DNA of 64,000 bases, from positions 2,547,036 through 2,611,035 of the forward strand of contig NC_087083.1 in assembly GCF_026151205.1 (NCBI RefSeq), written 5' to 3'. Position numbers and translations under genes: made by a program. The stretch comes from Bolinopsis microptera (lineage: Eukaryota > Ctenophora > Tentaculata > Lobata > Bolinopsidae). Under the pieces are notes generated by a model. That model saw only the letters and a program-made list of their open reading frames with translations, was not told the origin of the DNA and searched no databases. Shown one piece after another: positions 46,993 to 64,000 of the stretch (its first letter is position 1; every line of letters begins with the position of its first letter).

Positions 46993-47106
46993 ATGGCGGG
47001 AGGTTTGGTAAAGAAGCTAGGAATCGCTGCAGCTGGATGGGCGGCCCTATTCAGTCTTATTTCAACTTGTATATTGTTTCATCCGGACGCTTGGGCTACC
47101 GAAATG
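46993..47106 (+). CDS. multi-pass membrane protein, exon 1
   Basis: The ATG at 46993 opens 38 codons (MAGGLVKKLGIAAAGWAAL, then a hydrophobic stretch, then HPDAWATEM) and ends at the donor ATG|GTAAAA in phase 0. Residues about 9-30 form a likely first membrane helix preceded by two lysines. Read together, exons 1-3 make 112 codons without a stop, with hydrophobic segments about residues 10-30, 39-56, 63-76 and 90-111, suggesting three to four membrane passes. I do not recognise the family. The frame and three compatible splice phases make a real gene likely. The 3' part of the gene is not located. Confidence 0.65.
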
Positions 47107-47355
47107 GTAAAATATCCCATGGCTCATATCTCACAAGCCACATGATCAAATCCCACAAGTCAGATGATATTTTATTCTTAAACGACATTATATTCCAGGC
47201 TGTGGCAGTGGAGCGCAAAATGTCTATTCTTCAAAATTATATTTTTCGAATGATTAAAACAGTTATATTTCTTTTAAAAATATTTGTATACAGAACATAC
47301 AATGTATTTAATTGGATATAATATAAAATACTAAAAATAACAATATCCTCCGCAG

Positions 47356-47425
47356 ACGTTACTCGCGTGCTTGTTTACAGGTCTGAGCGGAGCTATCCGA
47401 CTAGTTGATCACCTGAACGATATCA
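47356..47425 (+). CDS. multi-pass membrane protein, exon 2
   Basis: Acceptor CCTCCGCAG at 47347-47355 follows a 249-bp intron. The exon is 70 nt: 23 codons (TLLACLFTGLSGAIRL, then VDHLNDI) plus one base, ending GATATCA. The donor is TCA|GTAAGT, near-perfect for U1. The donor together with the last exon bases is the first unit of the 15-bp array that follows. Reading past the donor adds SKYDI and then meets TAG at 47446. So only the donors at 47426 and 47441 leave an open frame, and they differ by five residues. Confidence 0.6.
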
Positions 47426-50400
47426 GTAAGTACGATATCAGTAAGTAGGATATCATTAAGTACGATATCAGTAAGTACGATATCAGTAAGAACGATATCA
47501 GTATTCAGTAAATATGATATCAGTAAGTACGATATCAGTAAGTACGATGTCAGTAAGTACGGTATCAGTAAGTACGGTATCAGTAAGTACGGTATCAGTA
47601 AGTACGGTATCAGTAAATACGGTATCAGTAAGTACGGTATCAGTAAGTAAGATATCAGTAAGTACGGTATCAGTAAGCACGGTATCAGTAAGTACGGTAT
47701 CAGTAAGTACGGTATCAGTAAGTACGATGTCAGTAAGTACGGTATCAGTAAGTAGGATATCAGTAAGTACGGTATCAGTAAGTAAGATATCAGTAAGTAC
47801 GGTATCAGTAAGTACGGTATCAGTAAGTACGGTATCAGTAAGTACGGTATCAGTAAGTACGGTATCAGTAAGTACGGTATCAGTAAGTACGGTATCAGTA
47901 AGTAAGATATCAGTAAGTACGGTATCAGTAAGCACGGTATCAGTAAGTACGGTATCAGTAAGTACGGTATCAGTAAGTACGATGTCAGTAAGTACGGTAT
48001 CAGTAAGTAGGATATCAGTAAGTACGGTATCAGTAAGTAAGATATCAGTAAGTACGGTATCAGTAAGTACGGTATCAGTAAGTAAGATATCAGTAAGTAC
48101 GGTATCAGTAAGTAGGATATCAGTAAGTACGGTATCAGTAAGTAGGATATCAGTAAGTACGGTATCAGTAAGTACGGTATCAGTAAGTACGATATCAGTA
48201 AGTACGATGTCAGTAAGTACAGTATCAGTAAGTAGGATATCACTAAGTACGGTATCAGTAAGTAGGATATCAGTAAGTACGATATCAGTAAGTACGGTAT
48301 CAGTAAGTACGGTGTCAGTAAGTACGGTATCAGTAAGTAAGATATCAGTAAGTACGGTATCAGTAAGTAGGATATCAGTAAGTACTGTATCAGTAAGTAC
48401 GGTATCAGTAAGTAAGATATCAGTAATTCAGTAAGTACGGTATCAGTAAGTAGGATATCAGTAAGTACGGTATCAGTAAGTACAATATCAGTAAGTACGA
48501 TATCAGTAAGTACGATGTCAGTAAGTACGGTATCAGTAAGTAAGATATCATTAAGTACGATATCAGTAAGTACGATGTCAGTAAGTACGGTATCAGTAAG
48601 TACGATGTCAGTAAGTACGGTATCAGTAAGTACGGTATCAGTAAGTACGGTATCAGTAAGTAAGATATCAGTAAGTACGGTATCAGTAAGTACGGTATCA
48701 ATAAGTACGGTATCAGTAAGTAAGATATCAGTAAGTACGGTATCATTAAGTACGATATCAGTAAGTACGGTATCAGTAAGTACGATATCAGTAAGTACGG
48801 TATCAGTAAGTACGGTATCAGTAAGTACGATATCAGTAAGTACGGTATCAGTAAGTAGGATATCAGTAAGTACGGTATCAGTAAGTACGGTATCAGTAAG
48901 TAAGATATCATTAAGTACGATATCAGTTAGTACGATGTCAGTAAGTACGGTATCAGTAAGTACGATGTCAGTAAGTACGGTATCAATAAGTACGGTATCA
49001 GTAAGTACGGTATCAGTAAGTAAGATATCAGTAAGTACGGTATCAGTAAATACGGTATCAGTAAGTAAGATATCAGTAAGTACGGTATCATTAAGTACGA
49101 TATCAGTAAGTAAGATATCAGTAAGTACGGTATCAGTAAGTACGGTATCAGTAAGTACGGTATCAGTAAGTAAGATATCAGTAAGTACGATATCAGTAAG
49201 TAAGATATCAGTAAGTAAGATATCAGTAAGTACGGTATCAGTAAGTACGGTATCAGTAAGTAAGATATCAGTAAGTAGGATATCAGTAAGTACGATATCA
49301 GTAAGTACGATGTCAGTAAGTACGATATCAGTAAATACGATGTCAGTAAGTACGATATCAGTAAGTACGGTATCAGTAAGTAGGATATCAGTAAGTACGG
49401 TATCAGTAAGTACGATATCAGTAAGTACGGTATCAGTAAGTACGGTATCAGTAAGTACGATATCAGTAAGTACGGTATCAGTAAGTAGGATATCAGTAAG
49501 TACAGTATCAGTAAGTACGGTATCAGTAAGTACGATATCAGTAAGTACGATGTCAGTAAGTACGGTATCAGTAAGTAAGATATCATTAAGTAAGATATCA
49601 GTAAGTAGGATATCAGTAAGTACGGTATCAGTAAGTACGGTATCAGTAAGTACGATGTCAGAAAGTAGGATATCAGTAAGTACGGTATCAGTAAGTAAGA
49701 TATCAGTAAGTATGGTATCAGAAAGTACGATATCAGTAAGTACGGTATCAGTAAGTACGATATCAGTAAGTACGGTATCAGTAAGTACGGTATCAGTAAG
49801 TACGATATCAGTAAGTACGGTATCAGTAAGTACGATGTCAGTAAGTACGGTATCAGTAAGTACGATGTCAGTAAGTACGGTATCAGTAAGTACGGTATCA
49901 GTAAGTACGATATCAGTAAGTACGGTATCAGTAAGTAAGATATCAGTAAGTATGGTATCAGTAAGTACGATGTCAGTAAGTACGGTATCAGTAAGTAAGA
50001 TATTATCAAGTACGGTATCAGTAAGTACGGTATCAGTAAGTACGCGTACGGTATCAGTAAGTACGGTATCAGTAAGTAAGATATCAGTAAGTACGGTATC
50101 AGTAAGTACGATGTCAGTAAGTACGGTATCAGTAAGTAAGATATTATCAAGTACGGTATCAGTAAGTACGGTATCAGTAAGTACGGTGTCAGTAAGTACG
50201 GTATCAGTAAGTAAGATATCAGTAAGTATGGTATCAGAAAGTACGATATCAGTAAGTACGGTATCAGTAAGTACGATATCAGTAAGTACGATGTCAGTAA
50301 GTACGGTATCAGTAAGTAAGATATCATTAAGTACGATATCAGTAAGTACGGTATCAGTAAGTACGGTATCAGTAAGTACGGTATCAGTAAGTACGGTATC

Positions 50401-51368
50401 AGTAAGTAAGATATCAGTAAGTACGGTATCAGTAAGTAGGATATCAGTAAGTACGGTATCAGTAAGTACGATGTCAGTAAGTAGGATATCAGTAAGTACG
50501 GTATCAGTAAGTAAGATATCAGTAAGTACGGTATCAGTAAGTACGGTATCAGTAAGTAAGATATCAGTAAGTACGGTATCATTAAGTACGATATCAGTGA
50601 GTTAGATATCAGTAAGTACGGTATCAGTAAGTACGGTATCAGTAAGTACGGTATCAGTAAGTAAGATATCAGTAAGTACGATATCAGTAAGTAAGATATC
50701 AGTAAGTAAGATATCAGTAAGTACGGTATCAGTAAGTACGGTATCAGTTAGTAAGATATCAGTAAGTACGATATCAGTAAATACGGTATCAGTAAGTACG
50801 ATATCAGTAAGTACGATGTCAGTAAGTACGATATCAGTAAGTACGATGTCAGTAAGTACGATATCAGTAAGTACGGTATCAGTAAGTACGATGTCAGTAA
50901 GTACGATGTCAGTAAGTACGATATCAGTAAGTAAGATATCAGTAAGTAAGATATCAGTAAGTACGGTATCAGTAAGTACGGTATCAGTAAGTAAGATATC
51001 AGTAAGTACGATATCAGTAAGTACGGTATCAGTAAGTACGGTATCAGTAAGTACGGTATCAGTAAGTACGATATCAGTAAGTACGATGTCAGTAAGTACG
51101 GTATCAGTAAGTACGGTATCAGTAAGTACGGTATCAGTAAGTACGGTATCAGTAAGTACGGTATCAGTAAGTACGATATCAGTAAGTACGGTATCAGTAA
51201 GTACGGTATCAGTAAGCAATATATCAGTAAGTACGGTATCAGTAAGTACGATGTCAGTAAGTAGGATACCATTGAGTACGGTATCAGTAAGTACGATGTC
51301 AGTAAGTACGATGTCAGTAAGTACGATATCAGTAAGTACGATGTCAGTAAGTACGATATCAGTAAGTA
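47421..51368. repeat. 15-bp splice-donor satellite, about 263 units
   Basis: The unit is GTAAGTACGGTATCA. Main alleles differ at unit positions 8-12 (ACGGTATC, ACGATATC, AAGATATC, AGGATATC, ACGATGTC). GTAAGT and the preceding TCA are changed in only a small minority of units. Each junction TCA|GTAAGT is a good consensus 5' splice site. The array starts exactly at the donor of exon 2. Segmental duplications are visible, for example a block at about 47678-47790 repeated 255 bp later. Long frames on both strands (VSVST and LLIPY cycles) are artefacts. Confidence 0.95.
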
Positions 51369-51738
51369 TTCGAATTTCCAACATTTTATTGGAAACTATG
51401 TATATTACGTAACTTAAAAGTTTATATTTATTCTAATAAGGCGGACTTGGCAATTGGCCAAAAAGCTTTTGACTGCGAACAAATATTGGATGTGATTAAT
51501 ATTCGAACACGAATAACAATGTTTTCCCTTGCAGATAAAATCACGCTTGATATTCTTAGAAACAGTGAGTGAAACAATTACTTTTGGATTTAAGATATAA
51601 TACATTTCTTTAATTACATATTTTGTTGACTAAAACATACTTGACTACATAATATAACATTTCAATTTGTAAGAAATTTTAAATGAGTAACTAAATTTCG
51701 TTATTGAACTAGGTAAAAAGTGGGTGTTCAGACTAGTC
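51369..51738. other. unique intronic spacer between two satellites
   Basis: AT-rich, within intron 2 of the membrane-protein gene. The minus frame at 51414-51605 is unsupported. Confidence 0.5.
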
Positions 51739-52954
51739 TGTATTACAGCAATATCTGGAGGTAAGTCCCAACAATATCACGTGACCTCACCCCTGTATTA
51801 CAGCAATATCTGGAGGTAAGTCCCAATAATATCACGTGACCTCACCCCTGTATTACAGCAATATCTGGAGGTAAGTCCCAACAATATCACGTGACCTCAC
51901 CCCTGTATTACAGCAATATCTGGAGGTAAGTCCCAACAATATCACGTGACCTCACCCCTGTATTACAGCAATATCTGGAGGTAAGTCCCAATAATATCAC
52001 GTGACCTCACCCCTGTATTACAGCAATATCTGGAGGTAAGTCCCAATAATATCACGTGACCTCACCCCTGTATTACAGCAATATCTGGAGGTAAGTCCCA
52101 ATAATATCACGTGACCTCACCCCTGTATTACAGCAATATCTGGAGGTAAGTCCCAATAATATCACGTGACCTCACCCCTGTATTACAGCAATATCTGGAG
52201 GTAAGTCCCAATAATATCACGTGACCTCACCCCTGTATTACAGCAATATCTGGAGGTAAGTCCCAATAATATCACGTGACCTCACCCCTGTATTACAGCA
52301 ATATCTGGAGGTAAGTCCCAATAATATCACGTGACCTCACCCCTGTATTACAGCAATATCTGGAGGTAAGTCCCAATAATATCACGTGACCTCACCCCTG
52401 TATTACAGCAATATCTGGAGGTAAGTCCCAATAATAATATCACGTGACCTCACCCCTGTATTACAGCAATATCTGGAGGTAAGTCCCAATAATATCACGT
52501 GACCTCACCCCTGTATTACAGCAATATCTGGAGGTAAGTCCCAATAATATCACGTGACCTCACCCCTGTATTACAGCAATATCTGGAGGTAAGTCCCAAT
52601 AACAATATCACGTGACCTCACCCCTGTATTACAGCAATATCTGGAGGTAAGTCCCAATAATATCACGTGACCTCACCCCTGTATTACAGCAATATCTGGA
52701 GGTAAGTCCCAATAATATCACGTGACCTCACCCCTGTATTACAGCAATATCTGGAGGTAAGTCCCAATAATAATATCACGTGACCTCACCCCTGTATTAC
52801 AGCAATATCTGGAGGTAAGTCCCAATAATATCACGTGACCTCACCCCTGTATTACAGCAATATCTGGAGGTAAGTCCCAATAATATCACGTGACCTCACC
52901 CCTGTATTACAGCAATATCTGGAGGTAAGTCCCAATAATATCACGTGACCTCAC
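51739..52954. repeat. 55-bp satellite carrying a complete micro-exon, 22 copies
   Basis: The unit is TGTATTACAGCAATATCTGG, AGGTAAGTCCCAATAATATC, ACGTGACCTCACCCC. Read in order it has a pyrimidine-rich tract (CCTCACCCCTGTATTACAG), 12 nt CAATATCTGGAG, and a consensus donor GTAAGT. Junction introns would be 43 nt. Three units have a 3-bp insertion (AATAATAAT or AATAACAAT). CACGTG is in every unit. It lies inside intron 2, and the 12-nt segment is frame-neutral between exons 2 and 3. Confidence 0.95.
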
Positions 52955-53047
52955 CAGTGGCGTAACGTTCCCTGTTGCCCCCCCCCCCCTGAAAAAGCGC
53001 CCCCATGTTAGCCCCCCCCCCCCCCCCCTGCGGGGTCGGCGCCACTG
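52955..53047. mobile_element. tiny hAT-like element with poly-C interior (93 bp)
   Basis: Ends CAGTGGCG and CGCCACTG are exact 8-bp inverted repeats. The flanks GACCTCAC (52947-52954) and AACCTCAC (53048-53055) match at 7 of 8 bases. This fits a hAT insertion into the last 55-bp unit, because the left flank is satellite sequence. The interior is mostly two C runs. Confidence 0.7.
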
Positions 53048-53277: not shown

Positions 53278-53429
53278 GAGTTGTTGCTCTTATCGGTTTT
53301 ATCGGGTACACGGCAGAAATTTCCGACGACCCAACACTGATGAGTCACAGACGGATGGCTGCATCTTATACATGCCTGGCCATGTCACTGCCCGGCCATA
53401 TCCAGAATATAGCCGTAGGTTTTATTCAG
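53278..53429 (+). CDS. multi-pass membrane protein, exon 3
   Basis: Acceptor ATTTTCTCAG ends at 53277. In the phase left by exon 2 the frame is open: R or G at the junction, then VVALIGFIGYTAEISDDP, then TLMSHRRMAASY and CLAMSLPGHIQNIAVGFIQ. The likely donor is CAG|GTCAGA at 53430, phase 0. The other good acceptor, at 53260 (TTATTTCCAG), would give an immediate stop in this phase. Composition (hydrophobic blocks separated by a charged loop SDDP-SHRR) is protein-like and distinct from its surroundings. Later exons were not identified. Confidence 0.65.
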
Positions 53430-53893
53430 GTCAGAGCAATATGATTTACATCTTAAAGACATCCCGGCGACGATAGTCAGTTAATTTTTGAGTATTTTAT
53501 TTAAGTTGTAAAGTGTGTTTTAGTGAGTTGTATGAAATTAAAGACTTGGCAAAGTGCAACAAGGGTTTACACAGTGTTAGGGTTTTTAATTTATTCATTT
53601 CTGTTGTATGATCTTGTTTGATGATATGATGGTTGGGCTGCTCCGAATATAACGAATAGTTATGGAGTCGCGTGTTGATTTAGCTTAGACTGATTTTAAT
53701 TAATTTTAACAAGATGATATCTATTTTAAGTGAAGTGTAATGCGAATGAGCAAAGAAAAACAAACGATTTTTAAAAGATCTCCAATCTACACGTCATTAT
53801 ACTTATAGCAGCAATAAATCTGCAAACTTTCATTTGTAAAAATTACTTAAACTACTGTTCCAATTAAAAATTGTCCTTTATTTTATTGGGTGG
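53430..53893. other. unique sequence, probably intronic
   Basis: AT-rich, with no frame and no repeat recognised. Confidence 0.45.
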
Positions 53894-54048: not shown

Positions 54049-54780
54049 TTAACCCTGACCCTGACCCTGACCCTGACCCTGACCCTGACCCTGACCCTGA
54101 CCCTGACCCTGACCCTGACCCTGACCCTGACCCTGACCCTGACCCTGACCCTGACCCTGACCCTGACCCTGACCCTGACCCTGACCCTGACCCTGACCCT
54201 GACCCTGACCCTGACCCTGACCCTGACCCTGACCCTGACCCTGACCCTGACCCTGACCCTGACCCTGACCCTGACCCTGACCCTGACCCTGACCCTGACC
54301 CTGACCCTGACCCTGACCCTGACCCTGACCCTGACCCTGACCCTGACCCTGACCCTGACCCTGACCCTGACCCTGACCCTGACCCTGACCCTGACCCTGA
54401 CCCTGACCCTGACCCTGACCCTGACCCTGACCCTGACCCTGACCCTGACCCTGACCCTGACCCTGACCCTGACCCTGACCCTGACCCTGACCCTGACCCT
54501 GACCCTGACCCTGACCCTGACCCTGACCCTGACCCTGACCCTGACCCTGACCCTGACCCTGACCCTGACCCTGACCCTGACCCTGACCCTGACCCTGACC
54601 CTGACCCTGACCCTGACCCTGACCCTGACCCTGACCCTGACCCTGACCCTGACCCTGACCCTGACCCTGACCCTGACCCTGACCCTGACCCTGACCCTGA
54701 CCCTGACCCTGACCCTGACCCTGACCCTGACCCTGACCCTGACCCTGACCCTGACCCTGACCCTGACCCTGACCCTGACC
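54049..54780. repeat. (CCCTGA)n telomere-like hexamer array, about 122 copies
   Basis: Pure CCCTGA units (TCAGGG on the other strand), a one-base variant of the animal telomere repeat TTAGGG. Similar hexamer tracts lie at 55289-55714, 56303-56500, 57044-57258, 57287-57598 and 57627-57962. A single CCCTAA unit occurs near 57892. Confidence 0.97.
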
Positions 54781-55108
54781 CAGGATCCAGGACCCAGGAT
54801 CCAGGACCCAGGACCCAGGACCCAGGACCCAGGACCCAGGACCCAGGACCCAGGACCCAGGACCCAGGACCCAGGACCCAGGACCCAGGACCCAGGACCC
54901 AGGACCCAGGACCCAGGACCCAGGACCCAGGACCCAGGACCCAGGACCCAGGACCCAGTAACCAGGACCCAGGACCCAGGACCCAGGACCCAGGACCCAG
55001 GACCCAGGACCCAGGACCCAGGACCCAGGACCCAGGACCCAGGACCCAGGACCCAGGACCCAGGACCCAGGACCCAGGACCCAGGACCCAGGACCCAGGA
55101 CCCAGGAC
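54781..55108. repeat. (CCCAGGA)n heptamer array
   Basis: It begins with GGATCC variants (CAGGATCCAGGACCCAGG) and contains AGTAACCAGG interruptions. Equivalent tracts lie at 55715-56120, 56500-56860 and 57962-58498, with short ones at 57259-57286 and 57599-57626. The minus strand has G3 runs spaced by four bases. Confidence 0.97.
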
Positions 55109-58100
55109 CCTGACCCTCAGACCCTAACCCGATCAATTGACCCCAGTGTAATTACATGGGGGTCAATTGTCGGGGGGTCAATTGTCGGGGGTCAATTGTC
55201 GTAGTAAGTCTTAGATTTCGCGACAATTGACCCCAGTGTGATTACATAGGGTGTCAATTGTCGGGGGGTTAATTGTCGGAGGATCAATTTTGACCCTGAC
55301 CCTGACCCTGACCCTGACCCTGACCCTGACCCTGACCCTGACCCTGACCCTGACCCTGACCCTGACCCTGACCCTGACCCTGACCCTGACCCTGACCCTG
55401 ACCCTGACCCTGACCCTGACCCTGACCCTGACCCTGACCCTGACCCTGACCCTGACCCTGACCCTGACCCTGACCCTGACCCTGACCCTGACCCTGACCC
55501 TGACCCTGACCCTGACCCTGACCCTGACCCTGACCCTGACCCTGACCCTGACCCTGACCCTGACCCTGACCCTGACCCTGACCCTGACCCTGACCCTGAC
55601 CCTGACCCTGACCCTGACCCTGACCCTGACCCTGACCCTGACCCTGACCCTGACCCTGACCCTGACCCTGACCCTGACCCTGACCCTGACCCTGACCCTG
55701 ACCCTGACCCTGACCCAGGATCCAGGACCCAGGATCCAGGACCCAGGACCCAGGACCCAGGACCCAGGACCCAGGACCCAGGACCCAGGACCCAGGACCC
55801 AGGACCCAGGACCCAGGACCCAGGACCCAGGACCCAGGACCCAGGACCCAGGACCCAGGACCCAGGACCCAGGACCCAGGACCCAGGACCCAGGACCCAG
55901 TAACCAGGACCCAGGACCCAGGACCCAGGACCCAGGACCCAGGACCCAGGACCCAGGACCCAGGACCCAGTAACCAGGACCCAGGACCCAGGACCCAGGA
56001 CCCAGGACCCAGGACCCAGGACCCAGGACCCAGGACCCAGGACCCAGGACCCAGGACCCAGGACCCAGGACCCAGGACCCAGGACCCAGGACCCAGGACC
56101 CAGGACCCAGGACCCAGGACCCTGACCCTCAGACCCTAACCCGATCAATTGACCCCAGTGTAATTACATGGGGGTCAATTGTCGGGGGGTCAATTGTCGG
56201 GGGTCAATTGTCGTAGTAAGTCTTAGATTTCGCGACAATTGACCCCAGTGTGATTACATAGGGTGTCAATTGTCGGGGGGTTAATTGTCGGAGGTTCAAT
56301 TTTGACCCTGACCCTGACCCTGACCCTGACCCTGACCCTGACCCTGACCCTGACCCTGACCCTGACCCTGACCCTGACCCTGACCCTGACCCTGACCCTG
56401 ACCCTGACCCTGACCCTGACCCTGACCCTGACCCTGACCCTGACCCTGACCCTGACCCTGACCCTGACCCTGACCCTGACCCTGACCCTGACCCTGACCC
56501 AGGATCCAGGACCCAGGATCCCTGACCCTGACCCAGGATCCAGGACCCAGGATCCAGGACCCAGGACCCAGGACCCAGGACCCAGGACCCAGGACCCAGG
56601 ACCCAGGACCCAGGACCCAGGACCCAGGACCCAGGACCCAGGACCCAGGACCCAGGACCCAGGACCCAGGACCCAGGACCCAGGACCCAGGACCCAGGAC
56701 CCAGGACCCAGGACCCAGGACCCAGGACCCAGTAACCAGGACCCAGGACCCAGGACCCAGGACCCAGGACCCAGGACCCAGGACCCAGGACCCAGGACCC
56801 AGGACCCAGGACCCAGGACCCAGGACCCAGGACCCAGGACCCAGGACCCAGGACCCAGGACCCTGACCCTCAGACCCTAACCCGATCAATTGACCCCAGT
56901 GTAATTACATGGGGGTCAATTGTCGGGGGGTCAATTGTCGGGGGTCAATTGTCGTAGTAAGTCTTAGATTTCGCGACAATTGACCCCAGTGTGATTACAT
57001 AGGGTGTCAATTGTCGGGGGGTTAATTGTCGGAGGTTCAATTTTGACCCTGACCCTGACCCTGACCCTGACCCTGACCCTGACCCTGACCCTGACCCTGA
57101 CCCTGACCCTGACCCTGACCCTGACCCTGACCCTGACCCTGACCCTGACCCTGACCCTGACCCTGACCCTGACCCTGACCCTGACCCTGACCCTGACCCT
57201 GACCCTGACCCTGACCCTGACCCTGACCCTGACCCTGACCCTGACCCTGACCCTGACCCAGGATCCAGGACCCAGGATCCAGGACCCTGACCCTGACCCT
57301 GACCCTGACCCTGACCCTGACCCTGACCCTGACCCTGACCCTGACCCTGACCCTGACCCTGACCCTGACCCTGACCCTGACCCTGACCCTGACCCTGACC
57401 CTGACCCTGACCCTGACCCTGACCCTGACCCTGACCCTGACCCTGACCCTGACCCTGACCCTGACCCTGACCCTGACCCTGACCCTGACCCTGACCCTGA
57501 CCCTGACCCTGACCCTGACCCTGACCCTGACCCTGACCCTGACCCTGACCCTGACCCTGACCCTGACCCTGACCCTGACCCTGACCCTGACCCTGACCCA
57601 GGATCCAGGACCCAGGATCCAGGACCCTGACCCTGACCCTGACCCTGACCCTGACCCTGACCCTGACCCTGACCCTGACCCTGACCCTGACCCTGACCCT
57701 GACCCTGACCCTGACCCTGACCCTGACCCTGACCCTGACCCTGACCCTGACCCTGACCCTGACCCTGACCCTGACCCTGACCCTGACCCTGACCCTGACC
57801 CTGACCCTGACCCTGACCCTGACCCTGACCCTGACCCTGACCCTGACCCTGACCCTGACCCTGACCCTGACCCTGACCCTGACCCTGACCCTAACCCTGA
57901 CCCTGACCCTGACCCTGACCCTGACCCTGACCCTGACCCTGACCCTGACCCTGACCCTGACCCAGGATCCAGGACCCAGGATCCAGGACCCAGGACCCAG
58001 GACCCAGGACCCAGGACCCAGGACCCAGGACCCAGGACCCAGGACCCAGGACCCAGGACCCAGGACCCAGGACCCAGGACCCAGGACCCAGGACCCAGGA

Positions 58101-58617
58101 CCCAGGACCCAGGACCCAGGACCCAGGACCCAGGACCCAGGACCCAGGACCCAGGACCCAGGACCCAGGACCCAGGACCCAGGACCCAGGACCCAGGACC
58201 CAGGACCCAGGACCCAGGACCCAGGACCCAGGACCCAGGACCCAGGACCCAGGACCCAGGACCCAGGACCCAGGACCCAGGACCCAGGACCCAGGACCCA
58301 GGACCCAGGACCCAGGACCCAGGACCCAGGACCCAGGACCCAGGACCCAGGACCCAGGACCCAGGACCCAGGACCCAGGACCCAGGACCCAGGACCCAGG
58401 ACCCAGGACCCAGGACCCAGGACCCAGGACCCAGGACCCAGGACCCAGGACCCAGGACCCAGGACCCAGGACCCAGGACCCAGGACCCAGGATCCAGGAC
58501 CCTGACCCTGACCCTCAGACCCTAACCCGATCAATTGACCCCAGTGTAATTACATGGGGGTCAATTGTCGGGGGGTCAATTGTCGGGGGTCAATTGTCGT
58601 ACTAAGTCTTAGATTTC

Positions 58618-60739: not shown

Positions 60740-60883
60740 ATGTTGGAAGACGAAGCCTCATCAGCATTTACCAGAGTGGTCAAGAAACCAAAAGTGTCAA
60801 AAGGCAAGACAAGTGCAGTCAAACCGTACGTCTGCAATCAGCCCGGATGCTTCAAGAGCTTCAGTCAACTCGGATACTTGCAG
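60740..60883 (+). CDS. C2H2 zinc-finger protein, exon with first half of finger 1
   Basis: From the ATG at 60740, 48 codons read MLEDEASSAF, a basic stretch (KKPKVSKGK) and PYVCNQPGCFKSFSQLGYLQ, ending at CAG|GTTAGG in phase 0. The frame is open further upstream, so an earlier exon or start is possible. Joined to the next exon, finger 1 is C-X4-C-X12-H-X3-H, the classical DNA-binding C2H2 pattern with the usual F and L core positions. Likely a nuclear DNA-binding protein. The paralogue group cannot be fixed from three partial fingers. Confidence 0.8.
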
Positions 60884-61522: not shown

Positions 61523-61604
61523 GCCCACCTGTACACTCACTCAGAAGGCCCACTCTACCAGTGCAGATGGAACAACCAGTGTGGCAGGCGCTTCTCAGAC
61601 CTCG
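61523..61604 (+). CDS. C2H2 zinc-finger protein, exon completing finger 1 and starting finger 2
   Basis: Acceptor CCCTGTCAG, then 82 nt: AHLYTHSEGPLYQCRW then NNQCGRRFSDL plus one base (phase 1), donor CTCG|GTTAGT. H and H of AHLYTH complete finger 1. YQC-X5-C begins finger 2. Phase agrees on both sides. The intron to the next exon is at least 248 bp. Confidence 0.85.
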
Positions 61605-61837
61605 GTTAGTTAGCTTGTCTTGTGGTTTACTTTGTCTATTCTTCTCCAAAGGGATTTATCATAGTATACAATCTGGAGGAGTTTAGGATCAGGTGAGAAG
61701 GATACCTGAGCCCTGAGGCACAACTGATTTGTTTCTCATCTTCAGCTTAAAATATATGGACGTGTGAAAAGGTTAAACACCTCTTGCTGTATAAATGGAG
61801 TGACTGATAAAGTGATAATACAATGTGATACAGTTTC

Positions 61838-64000
61838 ATAATCCTTGTTCAGGTAACTTGAAGAAGCACATGTTGACTCACACTGGAGAGAGACCCTACA
61901 GTTGCGACTGTTTCATAATCCTTGTTCAGGTAACTTGAAGAAGCACATGTTGACTCACACTGGAGAGAGACCCTACAGTTGCGACTGTTTCATAATCCTT
62001 GTTCAGGTAACCTGAAGAAGCACATGTTGACTCACACTGGAGAGAGACCCTACAGTTGCGACTAATAATCCTTGTTCAGGTAACTTGAAGAAGCACATGT
62101 TGACTCACACTGGAGAGAGACCCTACAGTTGCGACTGAATAATCCTTGTTCAGGTAACCTGAAGAAGCACATGTTGACTCACACTGGAGAGAGACCCTAC
62201 AGTTGCGACTGAATAATCCTTGTTCAGGTAACTTGAAGAAGCACATGTTGACTCACACTGGAGAGAGACCCTACAGTTGCGACTGTTTCATAATCCTTGT
62301 TCAGGTAACTTGAAGAAGCACATGTTGACTCACACTGGAGAGAGACCCTACAGTTGCGACTGTTTCATAATCCTTGTTCAGGTAACTTGAAGAAGCACAT
62401 GTTGACTCACACTGGAGAGAGACCCTACAGTTGCGACTGTTTCATAATCCTTGTTCAGGTAACTTGAAGAAGCACATGTTGACTCACACTGGAGAGAGAC
62501 CCTACAGTTGCGACTGTTTCATAATCCTTGTTCAGGTAACTTGAAGAAGCACATGTTGACTCACACTGGAGAGAGACCCTACAGTTGCGACTGTTTCATA
62601 ATCCTTGTTCAGGTAACTTGAAGAAGCACATGTTGACTCACACTGGAGAGAGACCCTACAGTTGCGACTGTTTCATAATCCTTGTTCAGGTAACCTGAAG
62701 AAGCACATGTTGACTCACACTGGAGAGAGACCCTACAGTTGCGACTGTTTCATAATCCTTGTTCAGGTAACTTGAAGAAGCACATGTTGACTCACACTGG
62801 AGAGAGACCCTACAGTTGCGACTGTTTCATAATCCTTGTTCAGGTAACTTGAAGAAGCACATGTTGACTCACACTGGAGAGAGACCCTACAGTTGCGACT
62901 GTTTCATAATCCTTGTTCAGGTAACTTGAAGAAGCACATGTTGACTCACACTGGAGAGAGACCCTACAGTTGCGACTGTTTCATAATCCTTGTTCAGGTA
63001 ACCTTGAAGAAGCACATGTTGACTCACACTGGAGAGAGACCCTACAGTTGCGACTGTTTCATAATCCTTGTTCAGGTAACCTGAAGAAGCACATGTTGAC
63101 TCACACTGGAGAGAGACCCTACAGTTGCGACTGTAGTTTCATAATCCTTGTTCAGGTAACTTGAAGAAGCACATGTTGACTCACACTGGAGAGAGACCCT
63201 ACAGTTGCGACTGTTTCATAATCCTTGTTCAGGTAACCTGAAGAAGCACATGTTGACTCACACTGGAGAGAGACCCTACAGTTGCGACTGTTTCATAATC
63301 CTTGTTCAGGTAACCTGAAGAAGCACATGTTGACTCACACTGGAGAGAGACCCTACAGTTGCGACTGTTTCATAATCCTTGTTCAGGTAACTTGAAGAAG
63401 CACATGTTGACTCACACTGGAGAGAGACCCTACAGTTGCGACTGTTTCATAATCCTTGTTCAGGTAACTTGAAGAAGCACATGTTGACTCACACTGGAGA
63501 GAGACCCTACAGTTGCGACTGTTTCATAATCCTTGTTCAGGTAACCCGAAGAAGCACATGTTGACTCACACTGGAGAGAGACCCTACAGTTGCGACTGTT
63601 TCATAATCCTTGTTCAGGTAACCTGAAGAAGCACATGTTGACTCACACTGGAGAGAGACCCTACAGTTGCGACTGTTTCATAATCCTTGTTCAGGTAACC
63701 TGAAGAAGCACATGTTGACTCACACTGGAGAGAGACCCTACAGTTGCGACTGTTTCATAATCCTTGTTCAGGTAACTTGAAGAAGCACATGTTGACTCAC
63801 ACTGGAGAGAGACCCTACAGTTGCGACTGTTTCATAATCCTTGTTCAGGTAACCTGAAGAAGCACATGTTGACTCACACTGGAGAGAGACCCTACAGTTG
63901 CGACTGTTTCATAATCCTTGTTCAGGTAACCTGAAGAAGCACATGTTGACTCACACTGGAGAGAGACCCTACAGTTGCGAGTGTTTCATAATCCTTGTTC
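61838..64000. repeat. 77-bp satellite made of a 3' splice site plus half exon, about 28 units, runs off the window
   Basis: The unit is GTAACTTGAAGAAGCACATG, TTGACTCACACTGGAGAGAG, ACCCTACAGTTGCGACTG, TTTCATAATCCTTGTTCAG. Units near 62070-62215 lack a few bases (GACTAATAATCC or GACTGAATAATCC), one near 63000 has an extra T, and one near 63134 an extra TAG. The junction TTCAG|GTAAC fits both a 3' and a 5' splice consensus. The final visible unit has GAGTG in place of GACTG. Confidence 0.95.
61853..61908 (+). CDS. C2H2 zinc-finger protein, half-exon completing finger 2 (first of about 28 copies)
   Basis: After acceptor CCTTGTTCAG, joining in phase 1 gives [18 protein letters not shown] then D. 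This completes finger 2 (C-X5-C-X12-H-X3-H) and supplies the canonical TGERPY linker and first Cys of finger 3. The sequence after GAC is no longer finger-like: CFIILVQVT, then TGA at 61936. So this copy is only the 5' part of an exon whose intact version must lie beyond the window or be lost. TTG/CTG differences between copies are both Leu; one copy has CCG. Confidence 0.7.

Follow-up and report, generated by a model that had tools for sequence, protein, structure and literature searches.

In the window, the 64,000-nucleotide stretch of Bolinopsis microptera DNA analyzed here, a 15-bp minisatellite of about 263 copies lies in the second intron of a predicted gene, and its unit joins the end of the preceding exon to a 5' splice site. 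This array (array 1) is probably an extreme mirage-type minisatellite, which arose by a short tandem duplication across the exon 2/intron 2 junction, then expanded, and has its outermost copy in use. The reading draws on the anatomy of the array, the composition of the unit from exon end and donor, the frame test of the donors, and the presence of sibling arrays. No evidence was found for a function of the array.

The 15-bp array and its predicted host gene

Tandem Repeats Finder reported array 1 at positions 47417 to 51368 of the + strand, with a period of 15 bp, 263.1 copies, 89% matches, and the consensus ACGGTATCAGTAAGT. Wraparound alignment divided the array into 264 full units and counted 233 exact GTAAGT. 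Elsewhere, the + strand of the window had 47 GTAAGT hexamers (22 of the 47 in array 2, described below), and the minus strand of the entire window had 17. The first unit consists of the final 9 nt of exon 2, ACGATATCA, which end at 47425, followed by GTAAGT at 47426. The common alleles were found at unit positions 2, 4, and 6, which are positions 8, 10, and 12 when counted from the G of GTAAGT. The accumulation of GTAAGT in array 1 is far beyond chance, and its placement at the exon 2 donor is correct. The original prediction had described a 5' splice site amplified about 263 times, an array starting at exon 2's own donor, and common alleles at unit positions 8 to 12, all of which agree with these data; the unit is exactly an exon end plus a donor.

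When the 233 donors were tested for reading frame, only those at 47426 and 47441 kept the frame to exon 4 open, the same two that had been predicted to do so. The other 231 bring in a stop at 47446 to 47448. Because of the open frame, the first two donors are favored, and the first of them (47426 to 47431, + strand) is likely the working 5' splice site of exon 2. A regulated or stochastic choice among donors, with several units used and protein or mRNA variants as the outcome, would be in keeping with a unit length divisible by three and with donor 47441, which leaves the frame open and adds 5 residues. However, the stop brought in by all remaining donors makes such a choice unlikely, and RT-PCR of lancelet mirages suggests regular splicing (PMC3087553).

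The predicted host gene lies on the + strand (slashes in the motifs below mark splice junctions). Predicted exon 1 (46993 to 47106) is an open frame from ATG to the donor ATG/GTAAAA. Exon 2 (47356 to 47425, 70 nt) is in frame between the acceptor CCGCAG/ and the donor ATCA/GTAAGT, and exon 3 (51713 to 51760, 48 nt), with the acceptor CTAG/ and the donor GGAG/GTAAGT, is in frame between exons 2 and 4. Exon 4 (53278 to 53444), called from the acceptor TTCTCAG/ and the frame, is the predicted last exon with the stop; a further donor, ATTCAG/GTCAGA, is possible at 53430 within it. The exon model of the original prediction needs correction: the ATG at 46993 belongs to exon 1, from which exon 2 is separate. 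That model had also joined 53278 directly to exon 2 and had missed the likeliest next exon, 51713 to 51760, along with its donor array.

Joined in frame, exons 1 to 4 give a predicted protein of 132 residues, which by eye resembles a membrane protein. A Pfam search with this protein, exon 3 included, gave no family at the cut-off (best, TMEM164, E 0.051), a PDB search gave nothing below E 0.56, and a genome search at E values up to 1 returned the gene's own exons only and no homologue. The gene model comes entirely from frame and splice consensus, and the exon limits and donor use given here are predictions for a gene without a homologue. Because the length of exon 3 is divisible by three, its inclusion and its omission both keep the frame open, and the frame cannot decide between them. 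In addition, a 30-nt alternative exon at 51535 to 51564, between TTGCAG and GTGAGT, also fits the frame between exons 2 and 3. We preferred 51713 to 51760 as exon 3 because array 2 repeats the tail and donor of that exon; both exons may be real. The short exons treated here were absent from the list given by a codon-usage scan over 264 kb surrounding the window (the 264-kb region). A 22-bp unit in two copies (82% matches) was observed at 47124 to 47168, starting 18 nt into the first predicted intron; it may represent a boundary array in a very short form.

Sibling arrays and the comparison with mirages

Tandem Repeats Finder reported a second array at the predicted donor of exon 3. The 55-bp unit of array 2 (51738 to 52955, + strand, 22 copies) comprises GTAAGT with the final 23 nt of exon 3 before it and 26 nt of intron sequence after it, and CAATATCTGGAG followed by GTAAGT occurs in 22 copies. 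A third array lies at an acceptor. In a zinc-finger gene on the + strand, the exon at 61523 to 61604, before which the preceding exon ends at 60883, is followed by array 3 (77 bp, 53 copies, + strand), which occupies 61833 to 64000 in the window and continues to 65864. Each unit of array 3 takes the intron end with the acceptor TTGTTCAG and adds 57 nt from the start of a zinc-finger exon. The remainder of the finger (WPGCGKSFSQ) follows the last copy alone, and the inner copies run into a stop. Against Pfam, the joined zinc-finger exons matched zf-C2H2 at 9.3e-15. A fourth array lies on the minus strand at another donor, 3.7 kb beyond the left edge of the window. It has 4 copies of a 61-bp unit in which 52 nt from the end of a predicted exon are followed by GTAAGTATT; a Pfam search with this exon gave no match. 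The likely working copy thus opens the donor arrays and closes the acceptor array, which is what junction duplications that preserve the outer boundary would produce. The window also contains a 4.4-kb GC-rich array of ACCCTG and GACCCAG units with strong strand asymmetry (54052 to 58502), which is flanked by and mixed with CAATTGTCGG and CGACAATTG repeats.

These arrays bear on the question of whether array 1 is a chance intronic satellite that contains GTAAGT, next to a wrongly called exon 2 whose junction match is coincidental. The exons of the host gene are predicted, the gene has neither a homologue nor a Pfam family over the cut-off, and tandem repeats make up 24.6% of the 264-kb region. 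Nevertheless, we consider this explanation quite improbable, as array 2, in this same predicted gene, and array 3, at the zinc-finger exon, share the register to predicted splice sites, the zinc-finger exons are backed by Pfam, and the predicted exons join in frame.

In the mirage-type origin that we favor, a short tandem duplication would have spanned the exon 2/intron 2 junction. Because a complete exon with an undamaged donor behind it would remain, a donor duplication would be nearly neutral and tolerated, and the additional copies would fall inside the intron. At an acceptor the arrangement would be mirrored, and the last copy would be the working one. The arrays could then grow through slippage or unequal exchange of the ordinary kind. 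The outermost copy, next to the exon, would be the working splice site, and the remaining copies would be decoys that leave with the intron. Near-neutrality, the mechanism of expansion, and the use of the first donor are what we infer in this scheme.

A 31-bp repeat lies across an exon-intron boundary in human CBS. Its unit carries the donor of its own exon, as in array 1; CBS has few copies and the host is human. In lancelet globin genes, tandem repeats lie across intron-exon boundaries, and the name mirages comes from work on Adh3 (PMC3087553). In the same text, duplication may affect the 5' as well as the 3' boundary, many units contain AG/GT, unit sizes are 10 to 72 bp in Adh3 and 150 to 160 bp in globins, and mirages are proposed as a source of introns. 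The globin mirages are found in Gb6 and Gb9, with 3 and 6 copies in two Gb6 haplotypes, and splicing is reportedly undisturbed by lancelet mirages (PMC3087553 and PMC3902484). A mirage is also described for TnC, and similar repeats for PGBD5 (PMC3902484).

Like lancelet mirages, the arrays of the window have units that span splice junctions at donors and acceptors, many with splice signals, and a complete exon adjoins the outermost copy. Arrays 1 and 2 cross exon-intron boundaries at predicted donors and array 3 at an acceptor; the units have minisatellite sizes of 15, 55, and 77 bp in arrays 1, 2, and 3, respectively; and splice signals occur in many units, with 233 GTAAGT in array 1 and 22 in array 2. 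In contrast to lancelets, the host is a ctenophore, the copies number 263 as against, for example, the 3 and 6 of the Gb6 haplotypes, and the arrays are known here from the sequence of one assembly. Array 1 looks like an extreme case of an already known kind of repeat in another animal group. A search for boundary minisatellites in ctenophores found no report in the available text of mostly subscription-free papers, preprints aside, which is a weak indication. Intron gain by tandem genomic duplication has also been described (PMC4974935; the model is given in PMC3087553 as well). The common element is the tandem duplication of sequence with splice signals, and the units of array 2 contain TATTACAG and GGAG/GTAAGT spaced by 12 nt. 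However, there is no sign that any unit here became a new exon or intron.

The GTAAGT motif and U1

The conservation of GTAAGT was examined by chopping array 1 into 262 units and counting changes as unit types and as unit-positions. GTAAGT was intact in 232 of the 262 units, and GT itself was lost in 17. Changes at the six GTAAGT positions comprised 22 unit types (35 unit-positions), and changes at the other nine positions comprised 43 unit types (228 unit-positions, mostly the three common alleles at 2, 4, and 6). Per position, 3.7 unit types were changed in GTAAGT and 4.8 over all other nine, indicating that GTAAGT is not specially preserved. If the positions with common alleles are dropped, the six remaining positions outside GTAAGT had changes in 7 unit types (9 unit-positions), and GTAAGT seems more variable than the rest, but this exclusion is biased. 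An array that serves U1 would be expected to conserve the donor motif above the rest of the unit, and the motif of array 1 was not so conserved. The original prediction that GTAAGT is altered in few units therefore holds as a count and fails as a sign of constraint; the comparison of substitutions inside and outside the motif, which it had proposed, found them no rarer inside.

The array was further proposed to compete for or recruit U1 or to suppress intronic polyadenylation. A functional platform of this kind, in which donor-like sites recruit U1 snRNP and either shield the long intron against premature polyadenylation or titrate U1, would be in keeping with the 233 intact GTAAGT. U1 genes begin with ATACTTACCTG on the + strand in three of the loci fetched, and ACTTACCTG is present in all six U1 loci on one strand or the other. 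The unit of array 1 can form 7 bp with this U1 5' end at -7.0 kcal/mol, which equals the real donor. However, neither AATAAA nor ATTAAA was found within array 1, and similar arrays lie at acceptors or have GTAAGT antisense to the gene. The acceptor array, the arrays with antisense GTAAGT, and the array of L069 (see below), which has no GTAAGT and lies 8 nt from a called acceptor, argue that the donor hexamer is not the common feature. Because GTAAGT is not specially conserved, a U1-sponge function is without support here, and we regard a U1 platform as very improbable. The proposed U1 function was rejected as unsupported with respect to conservation, polyadenylation signals, and sibling arrays.

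Minisatellites and splice junctions in the genome

The genome searched comprises 264.65 Mb in 232 contigs, and the window is on a 15.2-Mb contig. Among the matches listed, kinase and glutamate-receptor genes were on contigs C1 to C13, with one exception on C68. The best PDB chains for two glutamate-receptor genes of this genome were those named ML032222a iGluR, from Mnemiopsis, and for the second gene 4zdm, from Pleurobrachia, came next; these matches point to a ctenophore. A lancelet host had been considered at first; a search for the GFP family gave no match, a result of little weight because its control gave none either. The ctenophore Hormiphora has 13 chromosomes, and tandem repeats account for 13% of its genome (PMC8527503). 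Genome-wide, three GTAAGT spaced by 4 to 34 bases gave 14,421 matches and the reversed pattern gave 2,790; the same kind of pattern gave 4,766 and 4,454 (reverse) for GATAGT and 10,657 and 7,184 (reverse) for GTGAGT. These matches are not independent, because they accumulate within long arrays. At least seven GTAAGT clusters (among the matches listed, all on the + strand) and at least six GATAGT clusters (both strands) were counted in the first 2.6 Mb of C1. Among 90 anagrams in the 264-kb region, GTAAGT was ninth by number of clusters and first by hexamers in clusters. The ranks and the cluster counts indicate that the donor excess, counted as arrays, is modest. Most large arrays of the 264-kb region were tied to no exon in this analysis.

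All seven GTAAGT clusters listed for the first 2.6 Mb of C1 were examined, giving seven picked arrays and an additional 65-bp array at L040. Of these eight arrays at seven other loci, seven, among them six of the picked ones, either overlap a called splice site or end at most 10 nt away from it. At L036, a kinase-like gene (Pkinase E 0.0021, below the cut-off), the intron (positions 1195 to 1486 of this locus on C1) is entirely a 41-bp array from +3 of the donor to the acceptor; acceptor-like and donor-like signals were observed in each of its units. The arrays start 2 nt before the donor at L037, at +3 of the donor on the other strand at L038 (C8 domain, 8.9e-9), and at +52 of the donor at L039. 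In the lipase maturation factor gene of L040 (LMF1_C, 8.3e-29), the picked 14-bp array is 5 nt from an acceptor and the 65-bp array overlaps a donor. The array of L041 is at +8 of the donor on the other strand, and the 36-bp array of L042 takes in 24 nt from the end of an exon. At L037, L039, L041, and L042, the exons were called from open frames and splice consensus and had no Pfam match over the cut-off. GTAAGT is antisense to the gene at L038, L041, and the 14-bp array of L040, so the method of picking does not explain the position of these three arrays.

As a control, arrays were picked without GTAAGT, by GATAGT; six of the eight listed clusters were fetched and yielded five arrays, as L072 had no Tandem Repeats Finder row. 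Of the five, one lay at most 10 nt away from a called splice site (L069, 8 nt from an acceptor). The array of L070 was 27 nt from a weakly called acceptor, that of L068 about 49 nt into the intron after a called donor, and those of L067 and L071 near no called exon. The CACGACACTATC-type repeat of L071 also occurs at C1:578126-578187, with the same 62-base stretch at two places on C1 in opposite strands, which suggests a dispersed element carrying tandem repeats.

Kinase exon ends were picked regardless of repeats. Among 26 examined, 11 were excluded, as they had no callable donor or a frame that ran on (L046, L052, L053, L055, L056, L057, L062, L063, L064, L065, and L066) and one was a near-copy (L047/L048), leaving 14 distinct callable donors. 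The excluded L046, which would have supported the junction reading, has a TATTA repeat 9 nt beyond the domain match. The count leaves out repeats under the score limit at L051 (a G run between two junction copies), L054, and L059 (second exon). Two of the 14 donors had an array with a score of at least 100 starting within 20 nt, a limit set afterwards (L043 at +16 and L049 at +7), and 12 had no such array. In the uncovered positions of the 264-kb region, the background of array starts was 0.8% at score 100 and 1.6% at score 50, and the binomial chance of at least two in 14 was 0.008 to 0.03 at assumed rates of 1 to 2%.

These results hint that the minisatellites of this genome tend towards splice junctions, a tendency more interesting than the U1 idea. 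Whether donors and acceptors are preferred birthplaces of minisatellites genome-wide, with a considerable fraction of introns flanked or occupied by repeats of their own termini, is a tentative suggestion that we would rather doubt than assert. If true, it would, together with lancelets, point to a recurrent process in animal genomes, caused possibly by selection that spares only boundary-preserving duplications or by breakage at junctions linked to splicing or transcription, and it would provide standing raw material for new exons and introns. Boundary arrays are a proposed raw material for intron gain, and hundreds of identical donors in a row offer a natural experiment on the choice of the spliceosome among equals. 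Array 1 would extend the mirage phenomenon from a few lancelet genes to a non-bilaterian animal, in a far longer array and with a hint that such arrays are not rare there.
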